From positions 1-33,620 of the forward strand of contig JAFXYZ010000008.1 of the NCBI GenBank assembly GCA_017541465.1: a stretch of 33,620 nt of DNA, written 5' to 3'. The translations under genes were made by a program, and so were the position numbers. Under the pieces are notes generated by a model. The model was not told the origin of the DNA. It did not search any database and was given only the letters and a program-made list of their open reading frames with translations. Shown here one piece after another: positions 16,421 to 32,412 of this stretch. The stretch comes from a bacterium (GTDB lineage: Bacteria > Cyanobacteriota > Vampirovibrionia > Gastranaerophilales > Gastranaerophilaceae). The first letter of the stretch is position 1; the number at the start of each line of letters is the position of its first letter.

Positions 16421-17218
16421 ATGTTTATTAATAAAAAGAAGTCCGTTCCTACCCCCCCCTACTTCTTTTTGAAGAGAAGTAGGCAAGAAAACTTTCGTAG
16501 TTTTTCAAGTTCAACCAAGTTATGCTTCGCTCCGAATGAAGGTTTTACCCTCGCCGAGGTTTTGATAACTCTTGTTATTATCGGTGTAATTGCTGCAATT
16601 ACCGTTCCTACTCTTATTACCAAATATCAAAAAGAACAAACCATAACAAGATTAAAAAAAGCTTATTCTGCATTAGCCCAAACAACAAACAGGGCTATTG
16701 CGGATTATGGACCGATTGAGACTTGGGAACTAGGTTCAAATAACCCTGATGATGCAAAAATTTTTATTGAAAAATACATTACTCCATATATGAATATTTT
16801 AAAAGCTCCAACAACATATAATGAAGGTTTATGGAATAATCAATTATTTTATTTAAATGGAAGTCAACATAATTATGACAATTCTTATGTACGATTTTAT
16901 TTAAATGATGGTACATCCATTACCAGTCGAATTAGTACATCAAATTCTACACACAAATATATTGCATTACAAATTGATATAAATGGTGATAAAAAACCAA
17001 ATAAACTTGGTAAAGATATATTCAGGTACTACTATATTGTATTACATGATGTACAAAGTATTCAAGGTAAATTTATACCTGATGGTTTTATAACAGACCG
17101 AAATACATTATTAAGTAATAGCAATGATGCTAAATGTAATAAAAATCAATCAGGAAATCAATGCGCAGCAGTAATTATGATGGACGGCTGGCAGATAAAA
17201 GACGATTATCCTTGGTAA
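16421..17218 (+). CDS. Type IV pilin-like protein with long leader and 8-C tract (pilin A, in frame)
   Basis: A 265-residue prepilin. The mature protein starts at Phe42 after Gly41, with FTLAEVLITLVIIGVIAAITVPTL and the conserved Glu at mature position 5. The 41-residue leader is unusually long. It begins MFINKKKSVPTPP, where the PTPP codons contain eight consecutive C (16452-16459), and continues with Lys/Arg/Ser-rich sequence encoded by a hairpin repeat (16459-16482). The globular part contains DINGDKKPNKLGKDIF, a D-x-N-G-loop shared by pilins B, D and E, two late cysteines and the C-terminal WQIKDDYPW also found in pilin D. GAGAGG is about nine bases before ATG. This is the intact state of the C-tract family. 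The body is more AT-rich than the housekeeping genes. Confidence 0.85.
   Translation: MFINKKKSVPTPPYFFLKRSRQENFRSFSSSTKLCFAPNEGFTLAEVLITLVIIGVIAAITVPTLITKYQKEQTITRLKKAYSALAQTTNRAIADYGPIETWELGSNNPDDAKIFIEKYITPYMNILKAPTTYNEGLWNNQLFYLNGSQHNYDNSYVRFYLNDGTSITSRISTSNSTHKYIALQIDINGDKKPNKLGKDIFRYYYIVLHDVQSIQGKFIPDGFITDRNTLLSNSNDAKCNKNQSGNQCAAVIMMDGWQIKDDYPW
16452..16459 (+). repeat. Poly-C tract of 8 in the pilin A leader
   Basis: Eight consecutive C within CCTACCCCCCCCTAC encode Thr-Pro-Pro and keep the leader in frame with the pilin domain. The equivalent tracts in pilins B and D have 7 and 9 C and shift the frame, so 8 appears to be the ON length. Confidence 0.85.
16459..16482 (+). repeat. Hairpin repeat inside the pilin A leader
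   Basis: CTACTTCT (16459-16466) and AGAAGTAG (16475-16482) form an 8-bp stem with an 8-nt loop, directly against the C-tract. Leader codons 14-40 come from this segment and the following sequence, which are absent from the short leaders of pilins B and D. Confidence 0.6.
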
Positions 17219-17222
17219 ATTT

Positions 17223-17297
17223 GTTGGGCAGGAATGCCCAACTTACCTTTGGTAGTCTAAAGCCTACACTCCTTTTTTTGTCGGTCTGAAGCCCGAC
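17223..17297. repeat. Cluster of small palindromic repeats after pilin A
   Basis: Starting 5 bp after the pilin A stop is GTTGGGCAGGAATGCCCAAC (17223-17242, 8-bp stem). The same unit with one base changed is inside the pilin E leader (32323-32342). GTCGGTCTGAAGCCCGAC (17280-17297) is a one-mismatch copy of the perfect palindrome at 32497-32514. A degenerate GTAG/CTAC unit lies between them. They may act as a terminator but look like dispersed repeats. Confidence 0.75.
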
Positions 17298-17324
17298 CTA
17301 TATTTTTTGAATTAACGGTAAAAA

Positions 17325-17747
17325 CTAGCCATATATCGCTTTAATTCCCTGAAGGTTATAGATGAGGTTATCAAGGGCTTCTTTATCACCTTTTTTAATC
17401 TGAATAAAGCGAAGTATCATTTCTCTGCTTGCCGAACATTCAAGCACGTCAATGAGTCCGTCTATTTCGTCATCGGAGAGGGAAAATTTATCCTGCAATT
17501 TAGAAATATATAAAAGGTCATCTGTGTCTTTTGAATTAACAAACATCTGTCCAGCCCCTGTTAAGAGCCAGTTAATATTGACATGAAGCTGAGAAATCAT
17601 GGCGTTTAAAAACTTTTCACTCGGGGGTGCCTCGTCTCTTTCATAGCTTCCGATTGTGCGAAGCGGTATAGAAAGCCTTTTGGCAAGTGCCGAAGAGGTT
17701 ATATTCAGTACATTTTTGATTTTTTTTATTCTTTTTCCGACCGTCAT
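17325..17747 (-). CDS. Xre-family helix-turn-helix transcriptional regulator
   Basis: A 140-residue protein with an N-terminal HTH_3/Cro-CI domain (about 5-60): helices KRIKKIKNVL, SSALAKRLSIPLRTIGSYE as the recognition region, then HVNINWLLTGAGQMF (55-69), a phrase typical of phage-repressor-like regulators. The C-terminal half is acidic and helical and may dimerize; no peptidase active site is visible. It diverges from two small unknown genes across a 181-bp gap that contains two palindromes, one 18 bp from its start, so autoregulation is likely. AGGGAA precedes the start. A phage-derived origin is possible but no phage genes are near. Confidence 0.82.
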   Translation of the reverse strand: MTVGKRIKKIKNVLNITSSALAKRLSIPLRTIGSYERDEAPPSEKFLNAMISQLHVNINWLLTGAGQMFVNSKDTDDLLYISKLQDKFSLSDDEIDGLIDVLECSASREMILRFIQIKKGDKEALDNLIYNLQGIKAIYG

Positions 17748-17765
17748 AATAATTCCCTGTTAAAC

Positions 17766-17776
17766 AATGTTACATT
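17766..17776. promoter_or_regulatory. Candidate operator 1 for the Xre regulator
   Basis: AATGTTACATT is a perfect 5+1+5 palindrome centred 24 bp upstream of the regulator's start codon. Its half-site ACATT/AATGT recurs in the second palindrome at 17802-17817, as expected for repeated operator sites. Confidence 0.5.
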
Positions 17777-17801
17777 TTCATGCAGTTGTTATTGATTAAA
17801 C

Positions 17802-17817
17802 TTACATGATAATGTAA
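17802..17817. promoter_or_regulatory. Candidate operator 2 for the Xre regulator
   Basis: TTACATGATAATGTAA is a 6+4+6 inverted repeat, followed at once by TATAAT (17818-17823). The centre lies about 38 bp from that of operator 1. Binding here could control the divergent small genes as well as the regulator. Confidence 0.5.
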
Positions 17818-17928
17818 TATAATTTCTATAACTTCCAACAATAATATAATAACACAGTTTACAATATTTTGCCAATATAAAAATACATACATTATTAAGA
17901 AAGTTAAGAGAGAGTAAAGGAGTGGGAC

Positions 17929-18243
17929 ATGGTAAAAAAGAGGCATCTTACTTTGGTGTATTCAAATAACCGCCAAAAAGAAGAGAATAAAAATTTGATT
18001 AATCAGATACAATCGTTCTTTGAAAATCTGAAGTTTGTGTTCGTTTCACAAAACAGGAAAATCGAAACTCTGAGGGCGGTGCTTTTAAATATGTACAGAG
18101 ACTACGAAATCACCTCGGGAAATTGCGAAGTGCCATATTTTATCAGAGCAGAAAACAAAATAAACAAAATTATTCAGGAGGGAAAAATTAATTACTACTA
18201 CAAAAAGCTCAAAAAGTTTCAGGATTATATGGATTCTCTCTAG
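17929..18243 (+). CDS. Small unknown protein divergent from the Xre regulator
   Basis: A 104-residue, basic, Lys/Asn/Tyr-rich, probably helical protein with no membrane segment, signal peptide or recognised motif. AAAGGAG (about 17915-17921) is well placed for ATG 17929. It is three bases from the next gene and is likely the first gene of a two-gene unit under control of the adjacent regulator. I do not recognise the family. A toxin-antitoxin-like or phage-accessory role is conceivable from layout only. Confidence 0.6.
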   Translation: MVKKRHLTLVYSNNRQKEENKNLINQIQSFFENLKFVFVSQNRKIETLRAVLLNMYRDYEITSGNCEVPYFIRAENKINKIIQEGKINYYYKKLKKFQDYMDSL

Positions 18244-18246
18244 ATT

Positions 18247-18666
18247 ATGGCAGATAATGAACACATATTAAGGCTTTTGACCGAAGAGGAAGGAATAAAC
18301 AGGAATAATTTTCCGCTGAAATACGGAATTTCCCCGAAGTGCGCAAAGAGAATTTTTGAACTCTGTTCTGTTGTTCTGATAAATAAACCTCTCGGAATTT
18401 TAAGGCACTATAACAAAAACTCCGTATTTTTCAGAATAAAAGCGGATTATCTTCAGAATTTAAAACAAAAAACCTACTGTTTAACAATAGAAATGCCGAA
18501 AATAAAAGGAAATGCAGAAGAAATAAACAGGAAAATAAAAGAATATTTTTATTTTAAATTCGTTTTATTCCTTATGTTTAAAGGAAACAGAGCAAAAGGG
18601 ATGGAGATACTTTTAAAATCTAATCTAGTGTCGCCTTATGCCGACTCGTCATCCGAGCCGTCATAA
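18247..18666 (+). CDS. Unknown protein whose 3' end runs into a palindromic repeat
   Basis: A 139-residue, basic protein of unknown family. Residues 1-50 could include a helix-turn-helix-like segment (LKYGISPKCAKRIFEL), but this is not strong. It has no signal peptide or membrane helix. It starts three bases after the previous gene and has no good Shine-Dalgarno site, suggesting coupling. The last 13 or so residues (SPYADSSSEPS end) are encoded by the inverted-repeat element at 18627-18692, so the original C terminus has probably been replaced by repeat insertion. Confidence 0.55.
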   Translation: MADNEHILRLLTEEEGINRNNFPLKYGISPKCAKRIFELCSVVLINKPLGILRHYNKNSVFFRIKADYLQNLKQKTYCLTIEMPKIKGNAEEINRKIKEYFYFKFVLFLMFKGNRAKGMEILLKSNLVSPYADSSSEPS

Positions 18667-18727
18667 AGGCTCACCTTTTCTGACGCGACACTCACAAAAT
18701 TTGCTCACTTTACGTATCGCAAATTTT
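18627..18727. repeat. Composite inverted-repeat element
   Basis: AGTGTCGC (18627-18634) and GCGACACT (18685-18692) are terminal inverted repeats around an inner GAGCC/GGCTC stem (18654-18672). Immediately after, AAAATTTGC (18696-18704) pairs with GCAAATTTT (18719-18727). The element spans the end of the preceding gene and most of the gap to the GH35 gene. It is too short to encode a transposase. Confidence 0.6.
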
Positions 18728-18789
18728 GCTCGGTCAAATTAAAGTTCACTTTTAAATATACCGATAAACTATTTAGAGGTATATTGCCT

Positions 18790-21198
18790 ATGAAGATTGA
18801 ATACGACAAATATTCTCTTATTATTGACGGAAAGCGGACATTTATCCGCTCGGGCGCGTTTCATTATTTTCGCTCTCCCGGGTCTGAACTGGCTCAGGAC
18901 AGGTTCAGAAAGCTGAAGGCATGCGGATATAACACCGTTGATATTTATTTTTACTGGCAATATCACTCGGATAAAAGAGGGGAATGTGATTTTTCGGGAA
19001 TAAAAGACGTCAGAAAAGTTCTTCAGGCGGCAAAGGACTGCGGTTTGTTTGTGATAGCGCGCCCCGGGCCGTTTATTAACGCAGAGGTCAGCGCAGGCGG
19101 TTTTCCTCTCTGGTTTTTTGAGGATAAAACAATTATCCCCCGAAACAGAGTAGGAACGGAATATCAGTATTCCCCAAAATATATGGAATTAATTAAGGAA
19201 TGGTATGATACCATTATTCCAATTATAAACGAGTTCGATAATATTATTCTCTTCCAGATTGAAAATGAGTATGCAACGGACGAAATGGACGAAGAGTATA
19301 TGAAAGAGCTCTACGAAATGGCGAGAGAGCGGGGAGTAAAGTGTCCGATTTTCCATAATGACGCGTTTTTTGCAGGGTTATGGGCTGATGTTGTCGATAT
19401 TTATGCTCTCGACCTTTACCCTTATATAAACCCGAAACAGAACTGGAAAAAAGACCATTTTTGCTTTGATACTCTCGATAATGTCGAGGATATTTTCAGA
19501 TGTGCAAACCCGAATACCCCGCCATTTGTCGCTGAAATGCAGGCAGGCTGGTTCGATAAGTGGGATGGACTCGGCTATGACCATATAAGAGAAGCGCTCG
19601 GGGATGAACATATTAACATAATGACAAAAACCGCACTTTCTCAGGGCGTTACAATGTTTAATCACTATATGGCGGTCGGAGGCACCTCCTGGGGCAATAT
19701 TGCAAGCGATGAAGTCTATACAAGCTACGAATTTACCGCCCCGATTAACGAATACGGCTCGTTTAACCCCAATTTTTATAAGGTCAAAGAAATTAATTCC
19801 TTCTTAAAATCCTTCGGGCTAACCCAAACAGAACCCGTTGACTTTGATTTTTATGAAGAAAACATCTATGCAAAAATAAGAAAAGACCTTGAAAACGACT
19901 GTGAGTGGCTGTTTATCAGAAATTTAAACGAGGAAGAAAAAACCGTTGAGCTGCCCTTCAATAAAACTGTCGTTATTCAGCCCTATGATATGAAAATCTG
20001 CGCTAAAGATTTAAAACTCTACGCAACGGAAATTGAGTTTTCCGACATTGAAATTTTCTGCCGTCTCAGAAACGAAACAGAGGAAACTTTCTTCCTTATT
20101 TCGGACAAAAACGCAAACCTTTACACAAAAGACGGAAAAAGAATTTCAGGCGACAAAAAAGATTTTGATAACATCGTTTTTGAAAAGGGCGGGAAAATAA
20201 CAAGATTTGTATTTATCACGAGAAACAGCGCAAAAAGAGCCTGGTTCTTCGATGATAAGATAATCTTTGATGCCGATTTGGCTTACCCGGATGGAACAAT
20301 AGGGCTTTCATCCTCCTCTGAAGTCGGATATTACGACCTGAAATACGGCTTTTCAAAGCGAAGCTTCTTAGTCCAGATAGAAAACAAGCCAATTGTTTTA
20401 ACAAACCCCAAGGTTCGTTTCTGCGCAAACGAGATTGATTTGGATTTTGATTATTCAAAATGGAAGAGTGTTACAAAGAACTTTGATGCGGCCTCTTGCA
20501 GGGCATTTGATGAATTTATCTGGTATAAAGGAAAACTCCCAAAGACTATTAAGGAAATAACCCTGAGCGCCCGACATCTTTTTGCGATATATATTAACGG
20601 AAAAGAGGTGCTGAGCCGAAACAGTTATAAAATCGAACAGCTGAAACAGGTTCCCGAAACTCTTCAGGTACATCTTGACGAAAATTTGCTCACAAAAGAG
20701 GAAAATGAGCTCACGATTTTGGTTCAGAACCTCGGGTTTGACAAAGGTTTTTCGGGCGACACTAATCAGCCGAGAGGGCTCGTAACCTTTGAAACTATCC
20801 CCGACATGCCCGTAGAACTTTTTGTTTCGCAGAAACTCTCGCTCGAAAAAGGTATAAAAGAAGAGAGCAATTCTCCCTATCTCGTTAATGCTCATTTTGA
20901 GTTTGATATTGATTTCAGGCCCGATGAAATTTTCGGGAAATACCTCTATTTAAAAGAGTTTCCCTACAGGCGCGCAACCATCTTTTTAAACGGACACAAA
21001 ATCGGAAGGTTTATCAAACGCACGAGCGTTCAGGATAAATTTTACCTCATAAACACCTTTTTAGAGCCCCATAACTCGATAGATATTGTCATCTGGCAGC
21101 GCCACAAAAATATCCTATCATCGTGGGACTTTAAAACAGAGATAAAAAATGTTATCATAGAAATAGGAAACGACAACTATTTCAAACTACTGCATTAA
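18790..21198 (+). CDS. GH35-family beta-galactosidase-like glycoside hydrolase
   Basis: An 803-residue (with stop) GH-A clan enzyme predicted to remove terminal beta-galactosyl residues. The start is ATG 18790 with AGAGG at 18775-18779; an in-frame TTG at 18784 is the alternative. The N-terminal TIM barrel opens with IRSGAFHYFRSP (19-30), then RPGPFINAEVSAGGFPLWF (91-109). FQIENEY (155-161) holds the probable acid/base Glu160, and VAEMQAGW (247-254) the probable nucleophile Glu249. C-terminal beta-sandwich segments include YINGKEVL and FLNGHKIGRF. There is no signal peptide, so it should act in the cytoplasm on imported oligosaccharides, although no transporter is adjacent. The exact substrate cannot be read from the sequence. 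A 22-bp gap leads to the next gene. Confidence 0.88.
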   Translation: MKIEYDKYSLIIDGKRTFIRSGAFHYFRSPGSELAQDRFRKLKACGYNTVDIYFYWQYHSDKRGECDFSGIKDVRKVLQAAKDCGLFVIARPGPFINAEVSAGGFPLWFFEDKTIIPRNRVGTEYQYSPKYMELIKEWYDTIIPIINEFDNIILFQIENEYATDEMDEEYMKELYEMARERGVKCPIFHNDAFFAGLWADVVDIYALDLYPYINPKQNWKKDHFCFDTLDNVEDIFRCANPNTPPFVAEMQAGWFDKWDGLGYDHIREALGDEHINIMTKTALSQGVTMFNHYMAVGGTSWGNIASDEVYTSYEFTAPINEYGSFNPNFYKVKEINSFLKSFGLTQTEPVDFDFYEENIYAKIRKDLENDCEWLFIRNLNEEEKTVELPFNKTVVIQPYDMKICAKDLKLYATEIEFSDIEIFCRLRNETEETFFLISDKNANLYTKDGKRISGDKKDFDNIVFEKGGKITRFVFITRNSAKRAWFFDDKIIFDADLAYPDGTIGLSSSSEVGYYDLKYGFSKRSFLVQIENKPIVLTNPKVRFCANEIDLDFDYSKWKSVTKNFDAASCRAFDEFIWYKGKLPKTIKEITLSARHLFAIYINGKEVLSRNSYKIEQLKQVPETLQVHLDENLLTKEENELTILVQNLGFDKGFSGDTNQPRGLVTFETIPDMPVELFVSQKLSLEKGIKEESNSPYLVNAHFEFDIDFRPDEIFGKYLYLKEFPYRRATIFLNGHKIGRFIKRTSVQDKFYLINTFLEPHNSIDIVIWQRHKNILSSWDFKTEIKNVIIEIGNDNYFKLLH

Positions 21199-21220
21199 GA
21201 ATAGAACGGTTGGTGGTAAT

Positions 21221-21592
21221 ATGCCGATAGTACCTGAATTTTTAATTAAAAGGATTTATCAGAAGGGCTCACTCAAAAATGAGGCGGGGAAAATTACCCT
21301 TATGCTCAAAAACGTACTCGGGCCCGGGTTTATAAGCGGATTTGATTTTATAAGAATAAACGATTCCATCTATGGCGCGGATAAGGTTAAATTTATCACC
21401 CAGGGAAAAGAATTCAACGCAAAGGATATCACCGAAAGAACACCGATTGCCTTCAGGCTGGGACAGGAGGGAAAAATAATTCTTGACGGAATTGAAGGCT
21501 TAATCGAAGGGCTCAACAAAATCACTATTGAAGCCTTTAACCCTGAAGCGGGACGTGTCAGCATCAATATTCAGGACAATTTTGCAGCTTAG
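21221..21592 (+). CDS. Conserved-looking small beta-rich protein, function unknown
   Basis: A 123-residue protein beginning MPIVPEFLIKRIYQKGSLKN, with alternating hydrophobic strands (ITLMLKNVLGPGFISGF, KIILDGIEGL, NKITIEAF) suggesting an all-beta fold. It has no cysteines, signal peptide or membrane segment. GGTGG lies just upstream of ATG. It is 22 bp from the GH35 gene on the same strand and may be co-transcribed, but I cannot link it to sugar metabolism and do not recognise the family with confidence. Confidence 0.6.
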   Translation: MPIVPEFLIKRIYQKGSLKNEAGKITLMLKNVLGPGFISGFDFIRINDSIYGADKVKFITQGKEFNAKDITERTPIAFRLGQEGKIILDGIEGLIEGLNKITIEAFNPEAGRVSINIQDNFAA

Positions 21593-21671
21593 GCATTAAT
21601 TTTTTATATATTCTAAACTATATATGATTTTCATCATTATTACATTAAAAACAAAAATTATTTAAATTTTA

Positions 21672-21701
21672 GTGTTATTTTTTTGAAAAACATGGTATTA
21701 T
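21672..21701 (+). promoter_or_regulatory. Pilin-type promoter upstream of pilin B
   Basis: GTGTTA (21672-21677), an 18-bp spacer containing TTTGAAAAACATGG, and TATTAT (21696-21701), 32 bp before the pilin B ATG at 21734. The promoter is intact although the gene is out of frame. Confidence 0.6.
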
Positions 21702-21733
21702 ATAACTACTTCGTAAAAAAAGAGAGGAAAACT

Positions 21734-22407
21734 ATGTTTGTATATATAAAAAGAATTATTCCTACCCCCCCTATAAAAAAGGTTTTACACTTGCAGAAGT
21801 TCTTATTGCTCTTGTAATCATCGGAATAATCGCTGCAATGACAGTCCCGACTTTAAGTAATAAGACAAACAAACAAGAAACAATTGCAAGATTGAAAAAA
21901 ACATATTCAACAATGGCACAAGCAACAAATCAAATAATTGCAGAGAATGGTCCTGTTACTTCTTGGACTACTACAGGTAATGATGTGTACATGCTGTATA
22001 AAAAGAAACTTATAAACGCAAAAGAGTGCAATAAAACTACAGGTTGTTTTACTCAAGGTGATATTTCATATTTAAATGGCGGAACAACTAATTGGACTGA
22101 TGGACATTGGAATAAACTAGTATTGCAAGATGGAACACAAATATTATTTAGCGACGGATTCAACAGTCAATGTAATGATAGTAACATTAATAATCATGAT
22201 GGTTCGAATAATTATTGCGCACGATTCTTTGTTGATTTAAACGGAGCAAGAAAGCCCAATACTTACGGACGAGATATTTTTGTTTTTGTATTAAAGGCAA
22301 ATGGTCTTTATCCTGCTGGTTGTGATAATATAAGCTTATGCAGTAAGGATTATCAAGGTGCAGCCTGTGCATGTAAAGTTCTTAGAGAAGATAAAATAGA
22401 TTATTAA
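21734..22407 (+). CDS. Type IV pilin-like protein, frameshifted by a 7-C tract (pilin B, OFF state)
   Basis: The expected start ATG 21734 (AGAGAGG upstream) begins MFVYIKRIIPTPP but hits a stop after 27 codons, because the leader C-tract (21765-21771) has seven C. The pilin frame itself is open from 21781 (GFTLAEVLIALVIIGIIAAMTV) to the stop at 22407. One extra C fuses the two into a prepilin with a 17-residue leader. The downstream part alone can be read from ATG 21838, but it would lack the prepilin cleavage site and most of the membrane helix. The globular region has several cysteines, DLNGARKPNTYGRDIF and a C-terminal CACKVLRED segment shared with pilin E. Its stop is 2 bp from that of the convergent PBP gene. 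It is a switchable gene or a recent pseudogene. Confidence 0.8.
21765..21771 (+). repeat. Poly-C tract of 7 in the pilin B leader
   Basis: Seven C in the same CCTACCCC-TAT context as the 8-C tract of pilin A. The leader frame from ATG 21734 is one base out of phase with the pilin domain, and adding a single C restores it (47+1 bases = 16 codons to GGT at 21781). Confidence 0.85.
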
Positions 22408-22409
22408 CC

Positions 22410-24623
22410 TTATTCTTCACCGCTCTGAGGTGCGAAATTATCATCCTTTGCACGATTATCCATAATAATCGAATTTATCGGTATTGATTTAAAATCTCTC
22501 GGCTGAACGTCAGGTGTCTGCTGTGGCTGAGAAGGCTGAGTTTCGGTTTCTTTTTCTTTCTCTTTATCCTTCAGTCTTGACCAGGGCATAAGTGCTTTTG
22601 GAGCAGGTTTTTCAGGCTGTTTAACTTCTTCAATCGGTGTCTGTTCATCAACTCTGCCCTGAACCTCCTGAGAATTTGAAGGAGGAGCTTCGGTAATATC
22701 AGTAAAGCCTTCATCTGAAACACTGTGGATAATTTCGACCTCGTCACCTATGTAATCAAAATCAGAGTTCGGGAATTTTGCGCTCGCAACCTGCATCATA
22801 TCATGCCAAATCATCGCAGGAACAGTTCCGCCTGTCAGAGTGCCCATTTTGACGTTGTTATCGTTTCCAACCCAGACACCCGTAACAATATCAGGAGTAT
22901 AGCCAACAAACCAGGCATCTTTGTAGTCGTTTGTAGTACCTGTCTTGCCTGCCATCGGACGTTTTATATCGGCTCGTTTACCCGTACCTTCAGTAATAAC
23001 ACGTTTGAGCATAACCGTCAAAATTGCGGCGGAGTGTTGGTCTAAAACCTTATCAACTTTAGTTTTCGGAGCCTCGTAAATAACCTTGCCCCTTGTAGTT
23101 TCTATTCTTTCGACAGCATAGGGTTTAACTCTGAAACCTCCGTTTGCAAATACACCGTAAGCAACAGTCATATCATAGAGTTTAACACCGTTTGAACCCA
23201 AAGAAATTGTCATATCGTATTGAATCGGAGTTGTAATTCCAAGATTTCTTGCCATCTGGATAACAGAGCGAACCCCGTATTTTTTGATAAGTCTGACCGC
23301 AGCAACGTTTGAAGAAATCGCAAGTGCCTTATACAAAGGAAGTGCGCCCCTGTATTTGTCCCCGTAGTTTCCGGGAGACCATTTGCCGACAGTGATTGGA
23401 GTATCTTCAATAATATCATTCGGCATCATACCGCTCTGAACGGCAACGGCATAAACTATCGGCTTAAACGAAGAACCGGGAGGTCTTACAGCCTGTGTTA
23501 TTCTGTCATACTGGCTCTGCGAATAATTTTTACCTCCGACATAAGCAATTATAGCGCCGTTTATCGGTGAAAACGCAAACAGGGCAGCCTGCTGATTAGG
23601 GCCTGTCATTTTCCATTCTTTTAATTTAGCGTTTATTGCATCATTTGCAGCCTGCTGGGCTTTCATATCAAGTGTAGTCGTTATTTTGTAACCGCTTCTG
23701 GTTATATCTTTTTCGTCATAACCTAAAGCCTCTAATTCTTTAAGAACATAACCGATGAAATAGGGTGCTGCGTTTGAAGTTCCCGCTCTTGCACCATCTT
23801 TAGCCAAAACCACAGGGGTATTAAGGGCTTCTTTATACTGGCTCTTTGAAATATTCCCCATTTTATACATTCTTCCGAGTACCTGATTTCTTCTCTTTGT
23901 TGAGAGTTCAAGGTTGTTATAAGGTGAATAAACGGAAGGAGCCTGGGGAAGCCCTGCTATAAGCGCACATTCGGGAAGTGTCAAATCGCTGAGATTTTTT
24001 CCGAAATAAGTCTGCGCCGCAGCGGCAACACCATAAGAGCCCGAACCGAAATACACGTTATTCAGATACATCTCAAGAATTTGGTCTTTAGTGAGCGTTT
24101 TTTCTATTTGTGAAGCAATTATGAGTTCTTTTATCTTTCTGTCGTAAGTTTTTTCCTTCGTTAAAAATAGAACTCTTGCAAGCTGCTGGGTTATTGTACT
24201 TGCGCCCTGTTTTACCTTTTGCGATTTTATATTAACGAGAACGGAACGTGCCAAACCCCAGAGGTCATAACCTTTATGTGTATAAAAGCTCTTATCTTCG
24301 GTGGAAATCAGTGCCTGTTTGAGATAGTCGGGAATCTGGTTTAAAGAAACCTTCTCAAACTTATACGGGGTAAAGGTTTTGATTAGTTTACCATCAGAAG
24401 AATAAATTTTGGTAACAACATTCGGGTTATAGGTTTCAAGATTCGGAATAGGACTCTGGGAATCGAGGTACATAGTGAAAACGCAGAAGGCTGAAGCAAC
24501 AACAACGCAGCCGATTAAAAACATAACAAAGAAAAAGCCCAGAAATGGATGTCCTTTTTTCTTAATAACCGGCACATCAACTATTCTTGAATCCTTCTTT
24601 TTTCTGCTTTTCTCTTTTGCCAT
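22410..24623 (-). CDS. Class A penicillin-binding protein (PBP1A-like)
   Basis: Bifunctional glycosyltransferase/transpeptidase of 737 residues. It has a basic cytoplasmic tail and membrane anchor (about 28-50). The GT51 domain has the catalytic ISTEDKSFYTHKGYD (106-120, Glu109) and GASTITQQLAR (140-150). The transpeptidase domain has SSFK (Ser384, Lys387), SSN (437-439) and KTGTTNDYKDAW (560-571). All catalytic motifs are intact. The C-terminal 90 residues are Pro/Gln/Glu/Lys-rich and probably disordered in the periplasm. AGGACGGG is the ribosome binding site. It is convergent with pilin B and divergent from the YkgJ-type gene. Confidence 0.93.
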   Translation of the reverse strand: MAKEKSRKKKDSRIVDVPVIKKKGHPFLGFFFVMFLIGCVVVASAFCVFTMYLDSQSPIPNLETYNPNVVTKIYSSDGKLIKTFTPYKFEKVSLNQIPDYLKQALISTEDKSFYTHKGYDLWGLARSVLVNIKSQKVKQGASTITQQLARVLFLTKEKTYDRKIKELIIASQIEKTLTKDQILEMYLNNVYFGSGSYGVAAAAQTYFGKNLSDLTLPECALIAGLPQAPSVYSPYNNLELSTKRRNQVLGRMYKMGNISKSQYKEALNTPVVLAKDGARAGTSNAAPYFIGYVLKELEALGYDEKDITRSGYKITTTLDMKAQQAANDAINAKLKEWKMTGPNQQAALFAFSPINGAIIAYVGGKNYSQSQYDRITQAVRPPGSSFKPIVYAVAVQSGMMPNDIIEDTPITVGKWSPGNYGDKYRGALPLYKALAISSNVAAVRLIKKYGVRSVIQMARNLGITTPIQYDMTISLGSNGVKLYDMTVAYGVFANGGFRVKPYAVERIETTRGKVIYEAPKTKVDKVLDQHSAAILTVMLKRVITEGTGKRADIKRPMAGKTGTTNDYKDAWFVGYTPDIVTGVWVGNDNNVKMGTLTGGTVPAMIWHDMMQVASAKFPNSDFDYIGDEVEIIHSVSDEGFTDITEAPPSNSQEVQGRVDEQTPIEEVKQPEKPAPKALMPWSRLKDKEKEKETETQPSQPQQTPDVQPRDFKSIPINSIIMDNRAKDDNFAPQSGEE

Positions 24624-25090: not shown

Positions 25091-25124
25091 CAACCCTCAG
25101 CCCTGCCCTCTCCCTCGGAGAGGG
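25091..25124. repeat. CCCTCTCC palindromic repeat next to the pilin D stop
   Basis: CCCTCTCC (25106-25113) and GGAGAGGG (25117-25124) form an 8-bp stem, preceded by CAACCCTCAGCCCTG. The same kind of unit is in the pilin E leader (32275-32305), with CCCTCTC, GAGAGGG and the GGGTGAGGG flank. It lies 8 bp beyond the pilin D stop and could terminate transcription. Confidence 0.7.
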
Positions 25125-25132
25125 GGTGATAT

Positions 25133-25865
25133 TTACCACGGATAATCGTCTTTAATCTGCCAGCCGTCTTTCATGATAAGGGCTGCACATTTAGTTCCAA
25201 ATTTATTTTTACTGCATAAATATTCATCAGAACCTGATATTAAATCACTTCTTGATAGTTCATTACCTGTTGGTACTAATCTTCCTCCTGCTAATTTATT
25301 ACTCGTTACGAGATTATAAGCAAATTCAAAAATATCTCTTCCTACTTTGTTTGGTTTTTTATTTCCATTTATATCAACTTTAATTATTGCTCTTTTATAA
25401 GTAGGTGAATTATTATCAACTTTTACTGCAACAAAAGTACCGTCATTTAAATGAAATCCGGCTGCATAATTGGCATAAGCACCTTGTGCACCATTCAAAA
25501 AATAGAATGTCTTATTCCAATCAGCTTCGCTATAACTTGTAACATTTCCAACTTTTTGAACATATGGTGCAATAAATTTATTTACAAACGCTTTAGTTGC
25601 TGCAGCATTTTGTGCTTCCCCTAACTCCCAAGTTTCTATCGGACCATAGTCTGATATAGCCTTTAAATTTGCTTGTGAAAGAGTTGAATATACTTTTTTT
25701 AATCTTGTAACAGTTTCCTCTTTTTGATGTTTAATAATTAATGTCGGAACGGTAATCGCAGCTATGACGCCTATAATGACAAGAGTTATCAGAACCTCGG
25801 CAAGAGTGAAACCATTATTTTTGTAGGGGGGGGGTAGGAATTAAGTCATTTTTTCTTGTAAACAT
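25133..25865 (-). CDS. Type IV pilin-like protein, frameshifted by a 9-C tract (pilin D, OFF state)
   Basis: ATG at 25865-25863 opens MFTRKNDLIPTPP, but the nine-C tract (25834-25826) moves translation out of frame, and it stops within about 26 codons. The pilin frame is open without interruption from NNGFTLAEVLITLVIIGVIAA (from about 25819) to the stop at 25133. Removing one C gives an intact prepilin with an 18-residue leader. Read alone, this frame has no ATG, GTG or TTG until 25498, so an annotation starting there misses half the protein. Its body matches pilin A: GPIETWELG, DINGNKKPNKVGRDIF, two late cysteines and the same WQIKDDYPW C terminus. A switchable gene is my preferred reading; pseudogene or assembly error are the alternatives. 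Confidence 0.8.
25826..25834 (-). repeat. Poly-C (plus-strand poly-G) tract of 9 in the pilin D leader
   Basis: Nine C on the coding strand in the same CCTACCCC-TAC context as pilin A. From ATG 25865 to the GGT of GFTLAEV is 52 bases, one more than 17 codons, so loss of a single C restores the frame. Confidence 0.85.
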
Positions 25866-25900
25866 AACTATCTCTCTTTCTCTAAAATAATCTTATATTA

Positions 25901-25930
25901 ATAATACCACATTTTTCAAAAATATAACAA
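25901..25930 (-). promoter_or_regulatory. Pilin-type promoter upstream of pilin D
   Basis: On the minus strand TTGTTA (25930-25925), an 18-bp spacer containing TTTTTGAAAAATGTGG, and TATTAT (25906-25901), 35 bp before the ATG. The stretch after the -10 (TAATATAAGATTA) is also shared with pilin A. Confidence 0.6.
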
Positions 25931-25940
25931 CTAAATAAAT

Positions 25941-26076
25941 CGACCATAACGGAGTGAGCCGTAATTGTTATGTTTTGTGCCGATTAGTCCGCACTGTTTG
26001 AACAACATCATTTTGTGTGAGTTTGCGGACTCTATACAAAACATTTACAAATTACGAGCGAACGTAGTTCAGGTCG
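25941..26076. repeat. Large imperfect inverted-repeat element
   Basis: Nested arms pair across 136 bp: CGACC (25941-25945) with GGTCG (26072-26076), CGTAATT (25960-25966) with AATTACG (26050-26056), ATGTTTTGT (25970-25978) with ACAAAACAT (26036-26044), and AGTCCGCA (25986-25993) with TGCGGACT (26024-26031). No reading frame of note is inside. It fills the gap between the pilin D promoter and the exported-protein gene and could be a MITE-like element or a structured RNA. Confidence 0.6.
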
Positions 26077-26089
26077 AGAGTTTCTTTGT

Positions 26090-26115
26090 AACTTTCTTGT
26101 CGGTACAAGAAAGTT
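26090..26115 (-). terminator. 11-bp perfect hairpin after the exported-protein gene
   Basis: AACTTTCTTGT (26090-26100) and ACAAGAAAGTT (26105-26115) form a perfect stem with a 4-nt loop, 8 bp past the stop of the minus-strand gene. There is no T-run after it on that strand, so it may be a dispersed repeat rather than a true intrinsic terminator. Confidence 0.45.
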
Positions 26116-26123
26116 AATAATCT

Positions 26124-27302
26124 TTAATACGCAAGTTCTATTAATCTCAGCCCATAGCCGTTAACAGAAATCGGCACAAAGGTTTCATCTATGGAAATTA
26201 ATCTTGAACTCGTTTCCTCAAAGTCTATACTCCAGGTTCCCAAAAAATATGGCTTTGTTTTTGAGAAAGCATAAGCATAAAAGACAATTCTGTTTTCGTC
26301 CTCAGCGCTCCAGCCGACAGGATACAAATCCCACATATATTTGGTTATATCAATACCAAAATTAACCCGCCAATAGTACTCGACAGCCTCTCTTAAAGTA
26401 TCAAGCCTATAGGTTTGCTCCGTATTAAAGTCATAGACAATGACATTTGTTTCCCAAACACCGTCAACGGTTGAGCCTATCTGCTCTTTAAAGGCTATCT
26501 TGCTTCCGTCCTTTGACCAGTCAAGCGGGAACAGGGTTGCAAGCCTGTATTCATCGAGTTTATCATTAACCGAAGAAACAATAGGCTTCATTTCCTGCTG
26601 GGTTATATAAGTCTTTTTAAGGGCATCAGGGATACTTACACCCTCTTTAACCTTTATATAGTGTGCATCATAGCCTGTCTGAACGAGCTTAGGGTAATAA
26701 TAAACACTCGTATAAACAATTCTTTGCTTGTCGGGCGACAAAATCGACTGAGAATCAAGTTTTCTGTATTTATATAACCCGTTGAGCTCAAACCTTCTCG
26801 CCCCCGGGGGTGTATTATAAAAAACAACTCTGTAATGTGGATCAGGAATAACAAACTTAGGCTTTTTCTGGTAAACCGGCTCAGGTATCTTGAAATTTTC
26901 CCTTTTAACATCTGCCGCCATTAACTTATAATCAATATTTGTCATGGGCTGACGCGACAAATCAAGATTATGGTAGTAAATCTTTCTCGTTTTTGGCAGA
27001 TGAAGTTTTCTTCTGACCTTTTCATTCAATGTTCTCGGGTCTTTGGGCTTTTTTTCCTTTTTCATTTCCCACGGCTGCTTTAGTTCATCATTTTGTTTAA
27101 CCTGCTCAATTGCCTTCTGGAAGGCTTCTTCCATTTCCTCATCCTCGTCCTTCGGCTCTGTGGTTGATTCTTCAGTTTGGGTAGTAAAATCAACCACTGT
27201 CTCTTTGTTTTCAGGGGGAATATTATTTTCCTGCTCCTCCGAAAAAGCGGTAAAAGACAGAGAAACAACAACCAAAAGGAAAAGTTTAAAAAGATGTTTC
27301 AT
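26124..27302 (-). CDS. Exported protein with WD40/TolB-like repeats, function unknown
   Basis: A 392-residue protein with a signal peptide (KHLFKLFLLVVVSLSFTAFSEE, about 1-22). A very acidic, Thr/Glu-rich linker follows (23-70), then a basic stretch. The C-terminal half has three propeller-like repeats: LSPDKQRIVYTS (about 188-199), LDWSKDGSKIAFKE (about 258-271) and GWSAEDENRIVFYAY, resembling PD40/TolB beta-propeller blades. No lipobox cysteine or anchor is seen, so it is probably periplasmic. It starts five bases after the response-regulator stop, which puts it in the same transcript, so it may be an output or partner of the two-component system. I do not recognise the family. Confidence 0.7.
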   Translation of the reverse strand: MKHLFKLFLLVVVSLSFTAFSEEQENNIPPENKETVVDFTTQTEESTTEPKDEDEEMEEAFQKAIEQVKQNDELKQPWEMKKEKKPKDPRTLNEKVRRKLHLPKTRKIYYHNLDLSRQPMTNIDYKLMAADVKRENFKIPEPVYQKKPKFVIPDPHYRVVFYNTPPGARRFELNGLYKYRKLDSQSILSPDKQRIVYTSVYYYPKLVQTGYDAHYIKVKEGVSIPDALKKTYITQQEMKPIVSSVNDKLDEYRLATLFPLDWSKDGSKIAFKEQIGSTVDGVWETNVIVYDFNTEQTYRLDTLREAVEYYWRVNFGIDITKYMWDLYPVGWSAEDENRIVFYAYAFSKTKPYFLGTWSIDFEETSSRLISIDETFVPISVNGYGLRLIELAY

Positions 27303-27307
27303 AAAGC

Positions 27308-27985
27308 CTATACCAAACCTTCTTTTACGGCGGTTATCGTTGCCTGGGTTCTGTTTGCGACATATAGCTTTTGTAAAATACTGTGAACGTGTGTTTTTAC
27401 CGTTGAAAGAGTTATAACAAGTTTGTCCGCAATATCTGAGTTGCTCATTCCATCTACGATAAGCGCAAGAACATCGAGCTCTCTTTCCGTCAGCCCGAAG
27501 GTGTTTTTAGTCTGTTTTTGGGGCTGTTTTTCCTCCTGTGGAGCAACGACGGTTTGTTTTTGCTGCTGAACGTTTGACAGCACAAGTCTTGCAATAGAAG
27601 GATCAAGCCATGCAGTCCCTTCATTTACCGCCGTAATGGCAGACATAAGCTGCTGTTCGTTTGCACCTTTTGTGATATACCCGTCAGCACCCGCCGAAAG
27701 CGCCTCAAAGACATCATCACCTGCTTCTCTGGAGGTAAAAATCAGCACCTTCGCATCACTGCCCGATTTTTTGATTAATTCAGTAGCTTCAATTCCGTCA
27801 AGTTCAGGCAGACCTATATCCATAAGCACGACATCGGGCTTTAACTCTTCAGTCATTTTAACTCCAAGCCTGCCGTTGTCGGCTTCAGCGACTATTTCGA
27901 CATTTTCAGACTTTGAAAGTGCCAGAGCAACGGCCTGTCTGAACATCGGATGATCTTCTACTATCAAAACCCTGATTTTACTCAT
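27308..27985 (-). CDS. NarL/LuxR-family response regulator
   Basis: A 225-residue regulator with an N-terminal receiver domain (2-118), Asp11 acidic pocket, phosphoacceptor Asp56 in VVLMDIGLP, Thr/Ser switch in IFTSREA and Lys105 in YITKGA. A Gln-rich linker follows (about 140-160), then a LuxR-type HTH (about 164-220): LTERELDVLALIVDGMSNSDIADKL and STVKTHVHSILQKL. It overlaps the kinase gene by 4 nt (ATGA), so the two are translationally coupled and probably a cognate pair. Target genes are unknown. Confidence 0.93.
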   Translation of the reverse strand: MSKIRVLIVEDHPMFRQAVALALSKSENVEIVAEADNGRLGVKMTEELKPDVVLMDIGLPELDGIEATELIKKSGSDAKVLIFTSREAGDDVFEALSAGADGYITKGANEQQLMSAITAVNEGTAWLDPSIARLVLSNVQQQKQTVVAPQEEKQPQKQTKNTFGLTERELDVLALIVDGMSNSDIADKLVITLSTVKTHVHSILQKLYVANRTQATITAVKEGLV

Positions 27986-29547
27986 GCTACAATCCTATCA
28001 TGTTTTACAGCACCCGAGAGGATAAAGAAGAACTCGCTCCCCTTTCCCTTATCGCTTTCGAGCCAAATCTTTCCGCCGTGCGCATCAATAATTTGTTTGG
28101 CAAGATAAAGCCCGAGCCCCGTACTCATCGACCTTCGTTCTGACGTCCCCTGCGAAAAACGTTTAAAAAGCTTAGGTATATCCTGTTTTGAAATGCCTAT
28201 TCCGTTATCTTTAACCGAGAACTGCAAATCATCTCCGTCAGTTGAAGCCTTCAACTCGATAGAACCGCCGTCATTTGTATAGTTTATGGCATTTCCCATA
28301 AAATTCATTATTACTCTTCTGATTTCGTTCCTGTCGGCTTCTATTTTTAAATCTTTTTCAAGATTAAAACACTTTACTATCTCAATATTCTTACTTTCTG
28401 CTAAAGACTTAACCTGTTCAGCGCACTCATCGACCAGTTTTTCAAACTCAAAAACAGTTTTAACCGTTGTCATTTTACCTGATTCATACTTATAGACCTC
28501 TAAAAGAGTGTTTACAAGCCCGAGCATATCCTGATTACTTTTTTTCATAGTAGTCAAAAGCATCTTTTGTTTTTCCTCTAAAGCGCCAAGCGAGCCGTCA
28601 AGAAAATATTCAAGAGTCTGAATTGCAGCAAGTGCAGGTGTTCTTAGGTCATGCGTGAGTGTCGCAATAAAGTCATCTCTCAGACGTTCCATATCTTTCA
28701 TTATGGAAATATCACGGATAACAACGACAAAATTACCGTTTTCCCCTTCTTTTTCAGGTGAAATATATGAACTGCTAATCTCAACCGAAATGTTTTTGCC
28801 GTCAGCCGCATTCACAATGCTCAAATCCCTGACAAATTTAACCTCCTCTTTATTGAGAACCGAATTTAGAGGGATATTGTTTTCGGGAATAATAACCTCT
28901 GAAATGTTGTGTGTTTTGAGCATATCGGAGCATAGCCCGAACATCTTTTCCGCTGCAGGGTTCGAGGAAACAATTTTTCCCTCTTCCGAAACGAGCAAAA
29001 TTCCGTCTGCGCAATAGTTAATGACGGCATTCAGCCTTGAGTTCATCTCAATAATATCAGCCGTCTTTGCCTTAACCAAATCCTCAAGAGACTCAGAGTA
29101 TTCAGTCAGCTTTTTGTTTGCGTTTTCGAGCAAAACCATTTTTTCTTTTAAAGCAAGTTTTAATCTTGTTCTCTCAATTGCGTTTTTTACAGGGATAAGA
29201 ATATTATTGTTATCATTTCCCCAGGGTTTTTCAATGTAGCGGTATATTCCGACCTCATTAATCGCTTTAATTGCGTTTTCTTTATCCGCATAGCCCGTTA
29301 CCAAAATCAGACTCAAATCGGGGTATAGCCTTTTAACCTTTGAAAGAAACTCAACACCGTTCATCTCGGGCATAGCAAAGTCGGAAACTACAACATCGAC
29401 AGGGTTATTCTCAAGGTATTCAAGCGCCTTCAGAGGACTGTTAAACGCAAAAACCTCCCCAACTCCTTCAAGTTCAAACAGAATTTTCATTGAAGAAGTA
29501 AAGACGGTTTCATCATCCAAAATTAAGATTTTGTTGTGCTCTGACAT
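27982..29547 (-). CDS. REC-PAS-histidine kinase (hybrid sensor, soluble)
   Basis: A 521-residue cytoplasmic sensor. An N-terminal receiver domain (phosphoacceptor Asp at about 56, VVSDFAMPEMNG) is followed by a coiled linker, a PAS domain (about 170-285, with VIRDISIMKDMERLRDDF leading out) and a HisKA domain with phosphoacceptor His in TLTHDLRTPALAA (about 299). The HATPase domain has N-box NFMGNAINYT, DNGIGIS and GTSERRSMSTGLGLYLAKQI. No membrane helix is present. I choose ATG 29547 because AGGGG lies six bases before it; the ATG at 29553 directly abuts that site. It leads kinase-regulator-exported protein. A receiver before the kinase suggests input from another phosphorelay protein. Confidence 0.92.
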   Translation of the reverse strand: MSEHNKILILDDETVFTSSMKILFELEGVGEVFAFNSPLKALEYLENNPVDVVVSDFAMPEMNGVEFLSKVKRLYPDLSLILVTGYADKENAIKAINEVGIYRYIEKPWGNDNNNILIPVKNAIERTRLKLALKEKMVLLENANKKLTEYSESLEDLVKAKTADIIEMNSRLNAVINYCADGILLVSEEGKIVSSNPAAEKMFGLCSDMLKTHNISEVIIPENNIPLNSVLNKEEVKFVRDLSIVNAADGKNISVEISSSYISPEKEGENGNFVVVIRDISIMKDMERLRDDFIATLTHDLRTPALAAIQTLEYFLDGSLGALEEKQKMLLTTMKKSNQDMLGLVNTLLEVYKYESGKMTTVKTVFEFEKLVDECAEQVKSLAESKNIEIVKCFNLEKDLKIEADRNEIRRVIMNFMGNAINYTNDGGSIELKASTDGDDLQFSVKDNGIGISKQDIPKLFKRFSQGTSERRSMSTGLGLYLAKQIIDAHGGKIWLESDKGKGSEFFFILSGAVKHDRIVA

Positions 29548-29571
29548 CCGCATCCCCTAATCAATAACTAT

Positions 29572-29600
29572 ATAATAGTCTTTTTTACTACCCATGACAA
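29572..29600 (-). promoter_or_regulatory. Sigma70-type promoter for the kinase operon
   Basis: On the minus strand TTGTCA (29600-29595), a 17-bp spacer and TATTAT (29577-29572), about 24 bp before the kinase start. The predicted leader is under 20 nt. The -35 lies just beyond the stop of the upstream HNH gene. Confidence 0.6.
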
Positions 29601-29618
29601 TTTGTTAAGAAAAATGAC

Positions 29619-31538
29619 TTATTGCGGAAGATACTCACTCTCTTTTTTCAGAGCATTTTCGAGGTTTGAAATAGTTGACTGAATGAGTTTGAGTTCAGTT
29701 TTGGCAGAATTTATCTTATCAACAATTTTTAAATCGTCATAAATTCCCTGAACTCTTGTTATCTCTTTTGAAAGCTCCTGAGATTTTCGGACAGCCTCAT
29801 CTCTGGAGCATATCGCTTTTAATTCTGAGTATTTTTCCTGCTCTTTTTGGATTTGAGCGAGCTGAGCCTCAGCATTTTGTCTTACAGAAGTAACCTTCGG
29901 CTGTTTTGTCTTTGCAAGGTACTGTCCTCTCTTAAATTCAGCTTTTGCGATGAGCGGATTTGACATCATAGAACTGATTTCGTTTTCTATATTACTCTGA
30001 GCATGAGCATAAATCTGCCTTGTAGTATCGCTCTGAGACATAGTTTGGCTCATTTTGTTCAGAAGGTCAATAAGTGATTTATACTTTTCAAACTGAGATC
30101 GCTCATCAGGAGTGCATTTATCAGGTGTTACATCGGGAGGCGGCTGGCGCTTCAGTATTTCATCCAGCTCCAATTCCTCCGCTAAGGCCTTATCAAGCGC
30201 CTTCTGACGTCTTTCCTCCTCGGGAACATTCTCTTCAAACTTGTCATAAGCAGAAATGACGTCATCATACTGAGATTTTTCAGCGGTCAGCTCGGGAAGC
30301 GGGGTGTATTTTTCGGATATTGCGTCAAATTTTTCCTGTTTTTCCTCGATTTCCTTCTCAACCTTCGACAACTCGGATTTCGTCTCATCAATAGAAAGCA
30401 TTATCTCAGCTTTCTTTTGCTCTGCCTGTTTTTCGGTTAACTGCTTTTTCTTCTTTGATTTAATATGCTCAGTGCCCACAACCTCGCCGATTTTGTCATT
30501 AAGACGATATATAGAACCGTTTAAACTTATCTTCTTATCCATCAGTTCTTTTAATTCAGACGTAAGCACTGCCTGTTTTTGTCTTACGCTGTGTTCTTCG
30601 TCCATATAGAACCCCTCTTTTTCCTTTTCAAGAGCGGCTATCTGGGCTTCTTTTTCAGCCTTTTCCTTTTTGGAACACGAAAGAGAGTATCTTATATCTT
30701 CAAAACAATTTTTAAATCTTAGATTTATCGAATCAAGAGTGCTTATTGCGTGAGCGCGCTGGGAAGAGAGAGTATCGAGCATTTTGAGAAGGTTTTGTGA
30801 GGAGATTTCCGCCCTTACCTGATTTCCCGAGTTTTCAAGAACATTTGCGAGTGCATACTGGTATTTATATTCAGGCATGTGCTTTTCAATACTGGGATAA
30901 AGAGAATTAAACTCCGAAAACTCCATACCCTGCTTTAAATCGTGGTTACATGTGTAGCAGGTTTCAACAAGATTAATGTCCTCATCAGAGTTGTCAATAT
31001 TCTTTCTCTGGGGTGTGATATGGTCAACTGTCTTTAAAAGAGGCTTCAGATGAGATTTAATTTCTTCTTTTACCTCGTTTTCATCTTTAAACCCTGCGTT
31101 TTTAATCAGCAACTCTAAGCCCGTCTGAGAGCCTGAGTTATTTGAAAAGGAAGAAAGCTGTCTGAAGAAGGCGATATGCTCCTTATTCATCTTTCTCTTA
31201 TCAACCGCTAAATCGGTGTAGTTATCGGGCATATCGAGTTTTTCCAGGATACTTCTCAGTTTACCCCCCAGCCTTGCCCCCTTCAGCTTCATAACCTCAA
31301 CGCAGAGAGCATCGATTTCCTGATCGGAATATACCTTTTCCCCGCAGTAGGCACAGTGTCCGGTGGGCTCTTTGATTTTATCAAGACTGTAATTTTTCCC
31401 TTTAAATGAAACTGTATCTTGTTTTAAGGGTGAAAGATTAGAGAAAATTTCCCGGACATCAGAAAACTTCTTCTCTTTTTTATCCGGATAAAGGAAGATG
31501 TTTTTGTTCAGATAGGAATTTATACTTAAAATCTGCAT
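29619..31538 (-). CDS. HNH-like zinc-binding protein with long coiled coil
   Basis: A 639-residue protein. After an N-terminal tail ending in the VSFKGK phrase (43-48), the region 60-205 looks like an HNH endonuclease fold: HCAYC (Cys62, Cys65), KTVDHITPQRKN (169-180, with the candidate catalytic His173), EDINLVETCYTCNHDL (186-201, with Asn189, Cys194 and Cys197). The remaining 400-odd residues are Glu/Lys/Gln-rich helices with heptad-like spacing, forming long coiled coils interrupted near 465-480 (KRQPPPDVTP). No P-loop is seen, so it is not an SMC ATPase. It is flanked by its own start signals and is transcribed ahead of the kinase promoter. A nuclease role is plausible but unproven; the zinc site could be structural. 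Confidence 0.72.
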   Translation of the reverse strand: MQILSINSYLNKNIFLYPDKKEKKFSDVREIFSNLSPLKQDTVSFKGKNYSLDKIKEPTGHCAYCGEKVYSDQEIDALCVEVMKLKGARLGGKLRSILEKLDMPDNYTDLAVDKRKMNKEHIAFFRQLSSFSNNSGSQTGLELLIKNAGFKDENEVKEEIKSHLKPLLKTVDHITPQRKNIDNSDEDINLVETCYTCNHDLKQGMEFSEFNSLYPSIEKHMPEYKYQYALANVLENSGNQVRAEISSQNLLKMLDTLSSQRAHAISTLDSINLRFKNCFEDIRYSLSCSKKEKAEKEAQIAALEKEKEGFYMDEEHSVRQKQAVLTSELKELMDKKISLNGSIYRLNDKIGEVVGTEHIKSKKKKQLTEKQAEQKKAEIMLSIDETKSELSKVEKEIEEKQEKFDAISEKYTPLPELTAEKSQYDDVISAYDKFEENVPEEERRQKALDKALAEELELDEILKRQPPPDVTPDKCTPDERSQFEKYKSLIDLLNKMSQTMSQSDTTRQIYAHAQSNIENEISSMMSNPLIAKAEFKRGQYLAKTKQPKVTSVRQNAEAQLAQIQKEQEKYSELKAICSRDEAVRKSQELSKEITRVQGIYDDLKIVDKINSAKTELKLIQSTISNLENALKKESEYLPQ

Positions 31539-31605
31539 ATGCTCTTTTCTCTATGCAGTTTTAAGTATTTAACAGATTTATTTTTGTTAGTTTATTAAGA
31601 TATTT

Positions 31606-32412
31606 TTAATAATTTATCGCACCCTCGCGAAGAACTTTGCAGGTACAACCCCAACCTGTTTTATTGCCATCATTATCTGTAGATGTACAATAAGTCAAGT
31701 CATCACACCCATCAGGGTACAAACCATTTTCCTTTAAAACGAAATAGAAACCATCTCGACCAAACATATTAGGCTTTCTTGCACCATTAATATCAACAAA
31801 AATCCAAGCACATACATTATTAGAACCCTGCGATGATTGTGAACAATCGTTATAAACACCTTCAAACATTACTTGCGTTCCATCTGCAAGAACAAGTTTA
31901 CCTCTTGATGTATTACTATTCCAATTATTAGCTATCTTTTTACCACTTAATAGTCTATACCAATTATCACCATCAACTTGATTAAAGCATCCTTCTTGCA
32001 TAGTGCAATCTTTTGCATTATGTAAATGCTTTTTGTATAAATTACTCAAATGTTCTACAGAAGAAGCCCAGCCGCCTTTATCAGCTCTTGGGATTCCTTC
32101 TTCAGCAATAATCAAATTTGTTGCCTGAGCAAGTGTAGAATATGCTTTCTTGAGTTTTGATACATATTCCTGATTATTAGTTTTATTCATCAATGTCGGA
32201 ACAGTTATTGCTGCAATAACACCAATGATTACAAGAGTTATTAAAACCTCGGCGAGGGTAAAAGCACATCTATTCCCTCTCTTTTGGGAGAGGGCTGGGG
32301 TGAGGGTAGATTTTACAGAATTGTTGGGCAAGAATGCCCAACCTACACTATTTTCTAAATCATCGCAACTGTGGGAGGGGGTAGGAATGACTTTATTTTT
32401 CAAATTAAACAT
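31606..32412 (-). CDS. Type IV pilin-like protein with a 50-residue repeat-derived leader (pilin E)
   Basis: A 268-residue prepilin in frame throughout. The mature part starts at Phe51 after Ala50 (FTLAEVLITLVIIGVIAA, Glu at mature position 5). The leader begins MFNLKNKVIPTPS; here the C-tract is interrupted by T (CCTACCCCCTCCC), so it should not slip. It then carries residues encoded by two palindromic units: VGWAFLPNN from the GTTGGGC repeat and TLTPALSQKRGN from the CCCTCTC repeat. The globular part has several cysteines, DINGARKPNMFGRDGF and a CTCKVLREGAINY C terminus like pilin B. From family knowledge, leaders this long are unusual for a prepilin. Cleavage at Ala50 is a prediction. Confidence 0.84.
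   Translation of the reverse strand: MFNLKNKVIPTPSHSCDDLENSVGWAFLPNNSVKSTLTPALSQKRGNRCAFTLAEVLITLVIIGVIAAITVPTLMNKTNNQEYVSKLKKAYSTLAQATNLIIAEEGIPRADKGGWASSVEHLSNLYKKHLHNAKDCTMQEGCFNQVDGDNWYRLLSGKKIANNWNSNTSRGKLVLADGTQVMFEGVYNDCSQSSQGSNNVCAWIFVDINGARKPNMFGRDGFYFVLKENGLYPDGCDDLTYCTSTDNDGNKTGWGCTCKVLREGAINY
32275..32305. repeat. CCCTCTC palindromic repeat inside the pilin E leader
   Basis: CCCTCTC (32275-32281) and GAGAGGG (32288-32294), followed by CTGGGGTGAGGG, match the unit beside pilin D (25091-25124). Here it is read in frame as part of the leader (TLTPALSQKRG), directly before the prepilin cleavage site. Confidence 0.7.
32323..32342. repeat. GTTGGGC palindromic repeat inside the pilin E leader
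   Basis: GTTGGGCAAGAATGCCCAAC has an 8-bp stem and a 4-nt loop and differs by one loop base from 17223-17242 after pilin A. On the coding strand it is read as GWAFLPN within the leader. Confidence 0.75.

Follow-up and report, generated by a model that had tools for sequence, protein, structure and literature searches.

The window analysed here is a stretch of 33,620 nucleotides, contig 42 of a 74-contig genome (2.12 Mb, 99.7% complete) belonging to the Gastranaerophilales, the non-photosynthetic cyanobacterial lineage of the gut. It includes four genes, A, B, D and E, whose products all display the type IV prepilin hallmark, i.e., an N-terminal G/A-F-T-L-x-E cleavage/methylation motif followed by a hydrophobic helix; all four pass TIGR02532, and the Pfam N_methyl cut-off (PF07963) is passed by A and E, leader included. 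Gene A (16421..17218, + strand) codes for 265 aa and is in frame (ON) in the assembly; its leader spans 16421-16543, the mature part starts with FTLAEV at 16544 (PF07963/TIGR02532), and the C8 tract of the leader (16452-16459, +) is in frame through to GFTLAEV. Gene B (21734..22407, +) is out of frame (OFF) in the assembly, with a C7 tract at 21765-21771 (+) by direct reading and a mature frame that is open from 21784 to 22407, corresponding to 207 codons from FTLAEV to the stop. Gene D (25133..25865, - strand, ATG at 25865) is also OFF in the assembly; the direct reading gives a C9 tract at 25826-25834 (-), and the mature frame is open from 25810 to 25133, with 225 codons from FTLAEV to the stop. 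Gene E (31606..32412, -, ATG at 32412; 268 aa, with the mature part starting with FTLAEV at 32262) carries an interrupted tract, CCCCCTCCC, at 32373-32381 (-); it is in frame and, judging from this interruption, presumably locked ON. These tract states, with C8 in frame in A, frameshifts caused by C7 in B and C9 in D, and a broken yet in-frame tract in E, had been proposed in a first-pass annotation, and rereading returned each of them as stated. The four genes that it described as a family are all real; however, it overlooked a fifth prepilin, at 7454-8074 (-), which has an ordinary short leader (MKKAFTLSEALVTL) and no tract, and the fact that the window holds just 4 of about 70 genes in the genome with the leader type of A, B, D and E.

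Runs of seven or more C occur three times in the window, every one within the leaders of A, B and D; 3 of 100 shuffled sequences matched this count and, because shuffles yield C7 runs fairly often, the number of runs in the window carries little weight by itself. Between the tract and the cleavage site, A contains a repeat-like insert (16460-16500, +) with the hairpin TACTTCTTTTTGAAGAGAAGTAGG..., translated as KRSRQENFRS, close copies of which are found in about 15 further leaders of the same genome. Hairpin elements (TACTTCTTTTGGAAAAGAAGTAGG..., CCCTCTCCC...GAGAGGG) occupy this position at 16460-16500 and 32269-32348 of the window and in the leaders L010-L086; they remain open as leader sequence, and the leader length reaches about 75 residues. 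A shared -10-like element near TGTGGTATTATA is located upstream of all five prepilins of the window, at 8107, 16374, 21691, 25900 and 32445 (8 matches vs 2.8 expected), and could possibly serve as a common promoter. The window also comprises an ORF at 4426-4941 of low complexity, with Ala-Gln-Ala repeats (AQAQARAKAQQQ), the opposite strand of which is open as well.

The whole genome (2.1 Mb) contains 83 N_methyl prepilin genes, nearly all of which were retrieved for leader analysis. A run of C7-C10 is present in the leader of about 66 of the 83, usually in the layout ATG-TTT-...-GTT-CCT-A-C(n); all the data derive from consensus MAG assemblies, in which tract lengths are possibly off by one. 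When both strands of the genome were searched for C runs of at least seven, 77 were found, 65 of them in prepilin leaders, three at leader-like contig ends and nine elsewhere, with a length of eight or more in only three of these nine; thus, the C tract is specific to the prepilin family. The pilin types of this genome have near-invariant N-termini and variable loops, with conserved cysteines in the E/B type. AlphaFold models of both mature types (pLDDT 90 and 93) predict a 53-residue N-terminal helix and a beta-rich head; a PDB fold search with these two models returned no significant match, the head fold being uninformative.

The reading frames on the two sides of the tract are both preserved. 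The distance from the ATG to the tract, modulo 3, is identical in 63 of the 63 analysable genes, while among the 42 genes with at least 60 nt between tract and FTLAEV this stretch, which often consists of repeat-like inserts, is free of stops in the mature-pilin frame in 41, none of which is stop-free in either of the other two frames; in the OFF genes alone, 26 of 26 are open in the mature frame only. The lone exception, L061, has a stop inside the leader and was tallied separately, since any gene with a stop in the tract-FTLAEV interval is excluded by the frame filter. As both the ATG side and the mature side are kept in frame, both are coding and the tract is the sole frame breaker. In the assembly, the 63 genes are distributed as 25 in frame, 24 at +1 and 14 at +2 (p=0.17 against equal thirds). 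The length that restores the frame is 8 or 9, depending on the leader, and the length found in the assembly does not depend on it (C8/C9 counts of 17/24 and 10/8 in the two groups, Fisher p=0.40); frame classes close to one third, together with this independence, are what one would expect of slippage that is faster than selection on the consensus. The interrupted tracts, those of E, L045, L055 and L064, are in frame in four cases of four, compared to 25 of 63 for the uninterrupted ones (p=0.03). The genes thus resemble simple-repeat contingency loci on two counts: a slippage-prone run of C7-C10 lies inside the reading frame of about 66 leaders, and a change of one unit toggles between full product and early termination, the remainder of the gene being intact.

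The first-pass annotation had described the frameshifted genes as otherwise intact. Median body lengths in the three frame classes of the window's genome are 214, 215 and 212 aa; Nei-Gojobori dN/dS, computed without the conserved N-terminus, is 0.65 among ON-ON pairs and 0.61 among OFF-OFF pairs, rough values as dS is near saturation, and OFF-OFF pairs in related genomes give 0.19 (47 pairs, G060) and 0.35 (16 pairs, G059). Out-of-frame paralogs, although OFF in the assembly, therefore stay under purifying selection as proteins, and the equal lengths and dN/dS values refute the decay of their bodies. That the out-of-frame genes are pseudogenes, or their tract lengths assembly errors, is accordingly very unlikely: the consensus nature of the assemblies, the leader stop in L061 and a few truncated bodies would fit this explanation, but it has to face, besides the body lengths and dN/dS, OFF leaders that are open in the mature frame only, the occurrence of several tract lengths in one assembly, and an arrangement that recurs across assemblers and projects.

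The hairpin elements raise the question of whether the tract might be a hot spot of recombination or insertion, or the tail of a repeat, with a length that is incidental and translation that begins at another start. Repeat-like hairpin elements are indeed found 3′ of the tract in about 40 leaders; however, in 22 leaders the tract occurs with no insert at all, B and D contain no start codon between tract and FTLAEV, an alternative start in the mature frame is absent from most related leaders, and the frame between ATG and tract is constant in all of the 63 genes, so that this possibility appears very unlikely.

The distribution of the arrangement was investigated by scanning about 85,000 species genomes for a C6+ tract followed, after a short gap, by F-T-(L/F)-(A/S)-E. 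The matches that are pilins come from Gastranaerophilales MAGs only, plus L146, which is labelled as an uncultured bacterium; matches in Blautia, Clostridia and others are due to chance, as the genes there are not pilins. Within the window's family, the arrangement occurs in 44 of 383 genomes and in 8 of 41 genera, with both poly-C and poly-G tracts, and a reversed-pattern control on the same family sample yielded zero matches. A strict TAC pattern, applied to one genome per genus, gave 0 of 58 outside the window's own genome, a sampling effect when compared with the wider 44 of 383. Tract lengths in the relatives are C10-C13 in G060 and mostly 10 in genus g7, while in G059 C9 and G9 are modal (C9 in 25 of 27). 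In G327, a 2.2-Mb genome of this family, the N_methyl prepilin genes number at least 144, and leader tracts of both C10 and G10 occur among them (L380-L409, L422-L429). The modal length thus depends on the genome and is shared by its poly-C and poly-G tracts (9 and 9 in G059, 10 and 10 in G327), an equality that fits slippage in DNA. In G059, all of 67 near-identical pairs share the same tract length; in G060, a difference of one C in the tract separates paralogs whose 40-nt flanks are identical, and lengths from 7 to 10 coexist inside the window's genome. These last two observations argue against a single fixed tract length. In G059 (L164, L197, L234 and L240), remnant ATG-...-G9 leaders lie 5′ of pilins with their own ordinary start, and it looks as if the leaders had been replaced. 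One paralog of G060 (L276), with a tract collapsed to only two C's, is out of frame and may be an allele locked OFF.

Outside the window's genome, the frame classes are far from equal. Of 119 tract genes from 31 other genomes, only 6 are in frame and 113 are not (63 in class 2 and 50 in class 1), with narrow length distributions; these genes were sampled via the tract pattern and are mutually non-independent. The frame offset is nearly constant within single related genomes. Such an excess, with such narrow lengths, goes against free slippage, which predicts that lengths are more widely spread and that about one third of the genes are in frame; nevertheless, the leader architecture is common by descent, and one modal length can therefore shift a whole set out of frame. 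The modal length may correspond to an equilibrium of DNA slippage, one slip from ON, which would result in a display that is OFF by default. A stronger proposal is that genomes of the family, with dozens to more than 140 pilins (144 in G327), maintain nearly all of their tract genes, by design, a single slip away from being in frame, whether for a default-OFF combinatorial display, in which a random few are ON in each cell, or for a genome-wide poly-C/poly-G recoding at low level; we regard it as tentative and rather doubtful.

Recoding deserves to be considered as an alternative reading of the tracts. The tract would then be a site at which RNA polymerase (or the ribosome, though this is less likely) is programmed to slip, and the share of transcripts or ribosomes brought into frame in this way would give out-of-frame genes a constitutive low expression, with no heritable switching. 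It could account for relatives in which nearly every tract gene is out of frame at a near-constant length and bodies are nonetheless under selection (dN/dS of 0.19 in G060 and 0.35 in G059), as well as for the in-frame state of every interrupted tract, which is unable to slip. On the other hand, 40% of the tract genes in the window's genome are already in frame, and the offsets of the others go in both directions; poly-C, coding for Pro, and poly-G, coding for Gly, have the same modal length, which argues against both a tRNA-specific ribosomal and a strand-asymmetric RNA-polymerase slippage; and inspection by eye revealed no stop directly 3′ of the tract and no conserved stimulatory element. 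On balance, recoding is an unlikely explanation. Programmed ribosomal frameshifting in particular was rejected, as the offset is not constant in the window's genome (0 in 25 genes, +1 in 24 and +2 in 14). Slippage in DNA is favoured over slippage of RNA polymerase, an inference from the genome-specific modal length, equal for poly-C and poly-G, and from the mixture of both directions in the window's genome.

Taken together, these findings indicate that the genome probably carries a giant family of type IV pilins subject to slipped-strand phase variation, in which each gene has its own tract (about 66 of 83). The reading given by the first-pass annotation is thereby supported, in that the tract is the only frame breaker, the frames are kept on both sides and the OFF bodies are selected, with switching by slippage as the inferred step. 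Replication slippage would gain or lose one C at each tract; at one length in three the leader would be in frame with the pilin (ON), while the other two lengths would lead to an early stop (OFF). The genome codes for one Peptidase_A24 protein, i.e., a prepilin peptidase, and for two T2SSF (GspF/PilC-type) proteins. From homology, this single peptidase is expected to remove the leader together with the tract, and pilus assembly would be performed by one of the two T2SSF-containing systems. Because the peptidase would remove both tract and variable leader, the mature pilin should be unchanged at any in-frame length. With dozens of loci switching independently, each cell could display a pilin subset of its own, with a common N-terminal helix and variable heads; the slippage rate, the ON/OFF expression, the cleavage and the surface display are all deduced from the genomic data. 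A mutator phenotype due to a broken MutS1 was rejected, the flagged stop being the natural terminator of the gene; MutS1 is intact and therefore the strain is not deficient in mismatch repair, as far as MutS goes.

If this phase variation is real, an uncultured order of animal gut commensals varies its surface cell by cell, with a bearing on immune evasion, phage resistance and strain persistence. A practical consequence concerns gene callers, by which many such pilins would be missed or truncated in assembled genomes.

To our knowledge, no single-gene-family phasome of such size has been described. The first-pass annotation knew of nothing of this kind in the lineage, and this agrees with a literature search, in which no paper joined the lineage with phase variation. 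Campylobacter phasome genes have mostly varied surface-modification functions and do not constitute one expanded pilin family. The likeness with Campylobacter resides in the many genes with C/G mononucleotide tracts per genome (PMC6321876, PMC8355987). The word pilin is absent from the main text of a general survey of frame transitions (PMC3711429), and a relative from the termite gut is reported to have type IV pilus genes (PMC5877343).

The closest points of comparison are found in Neisseria. As in pilE/pilS, it is the type IV pilin itself that varies, and repeats are carried by 23 of 607 pilS alleles (PMC5953494); there, however, sequence from silent cassettes is transferred to a single expression locus by gene conversion. 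A cassette system of this type was rejected here, since every copy comes with a start codon and leader of its own, a purine-rich upstream sequence and a similar -10-like sequence. The likeness with pilC is that a pilus gene contains a G/C mononucleotide tract in its reading frame, slippage of which turns the gene ON and OFF in pilC (PMC5953494), although pilC is present in one or two copies and codes for a pilus-associated protein, while here the pilin subunits themselves are concerned. As such, the placement of repeats in a leader that is cleaved off is not new, the precedent being the Neisseria opa genes, in which CTCTT repeats are contained within the leader-coding region; like opa, the family described here is a multigene surface family in which each copy would be toggled by frame-shifting repeats in the cleaved leader, with the mature protein unchanged (PMC3960869). 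The opa genes, however, have a pentameric repeat, number about 2-12 per genome and code for outer-membrane barrels, whereas the tracts of this genome are mononucleotide, extend to about 66 genes and belong to type IV pilins.
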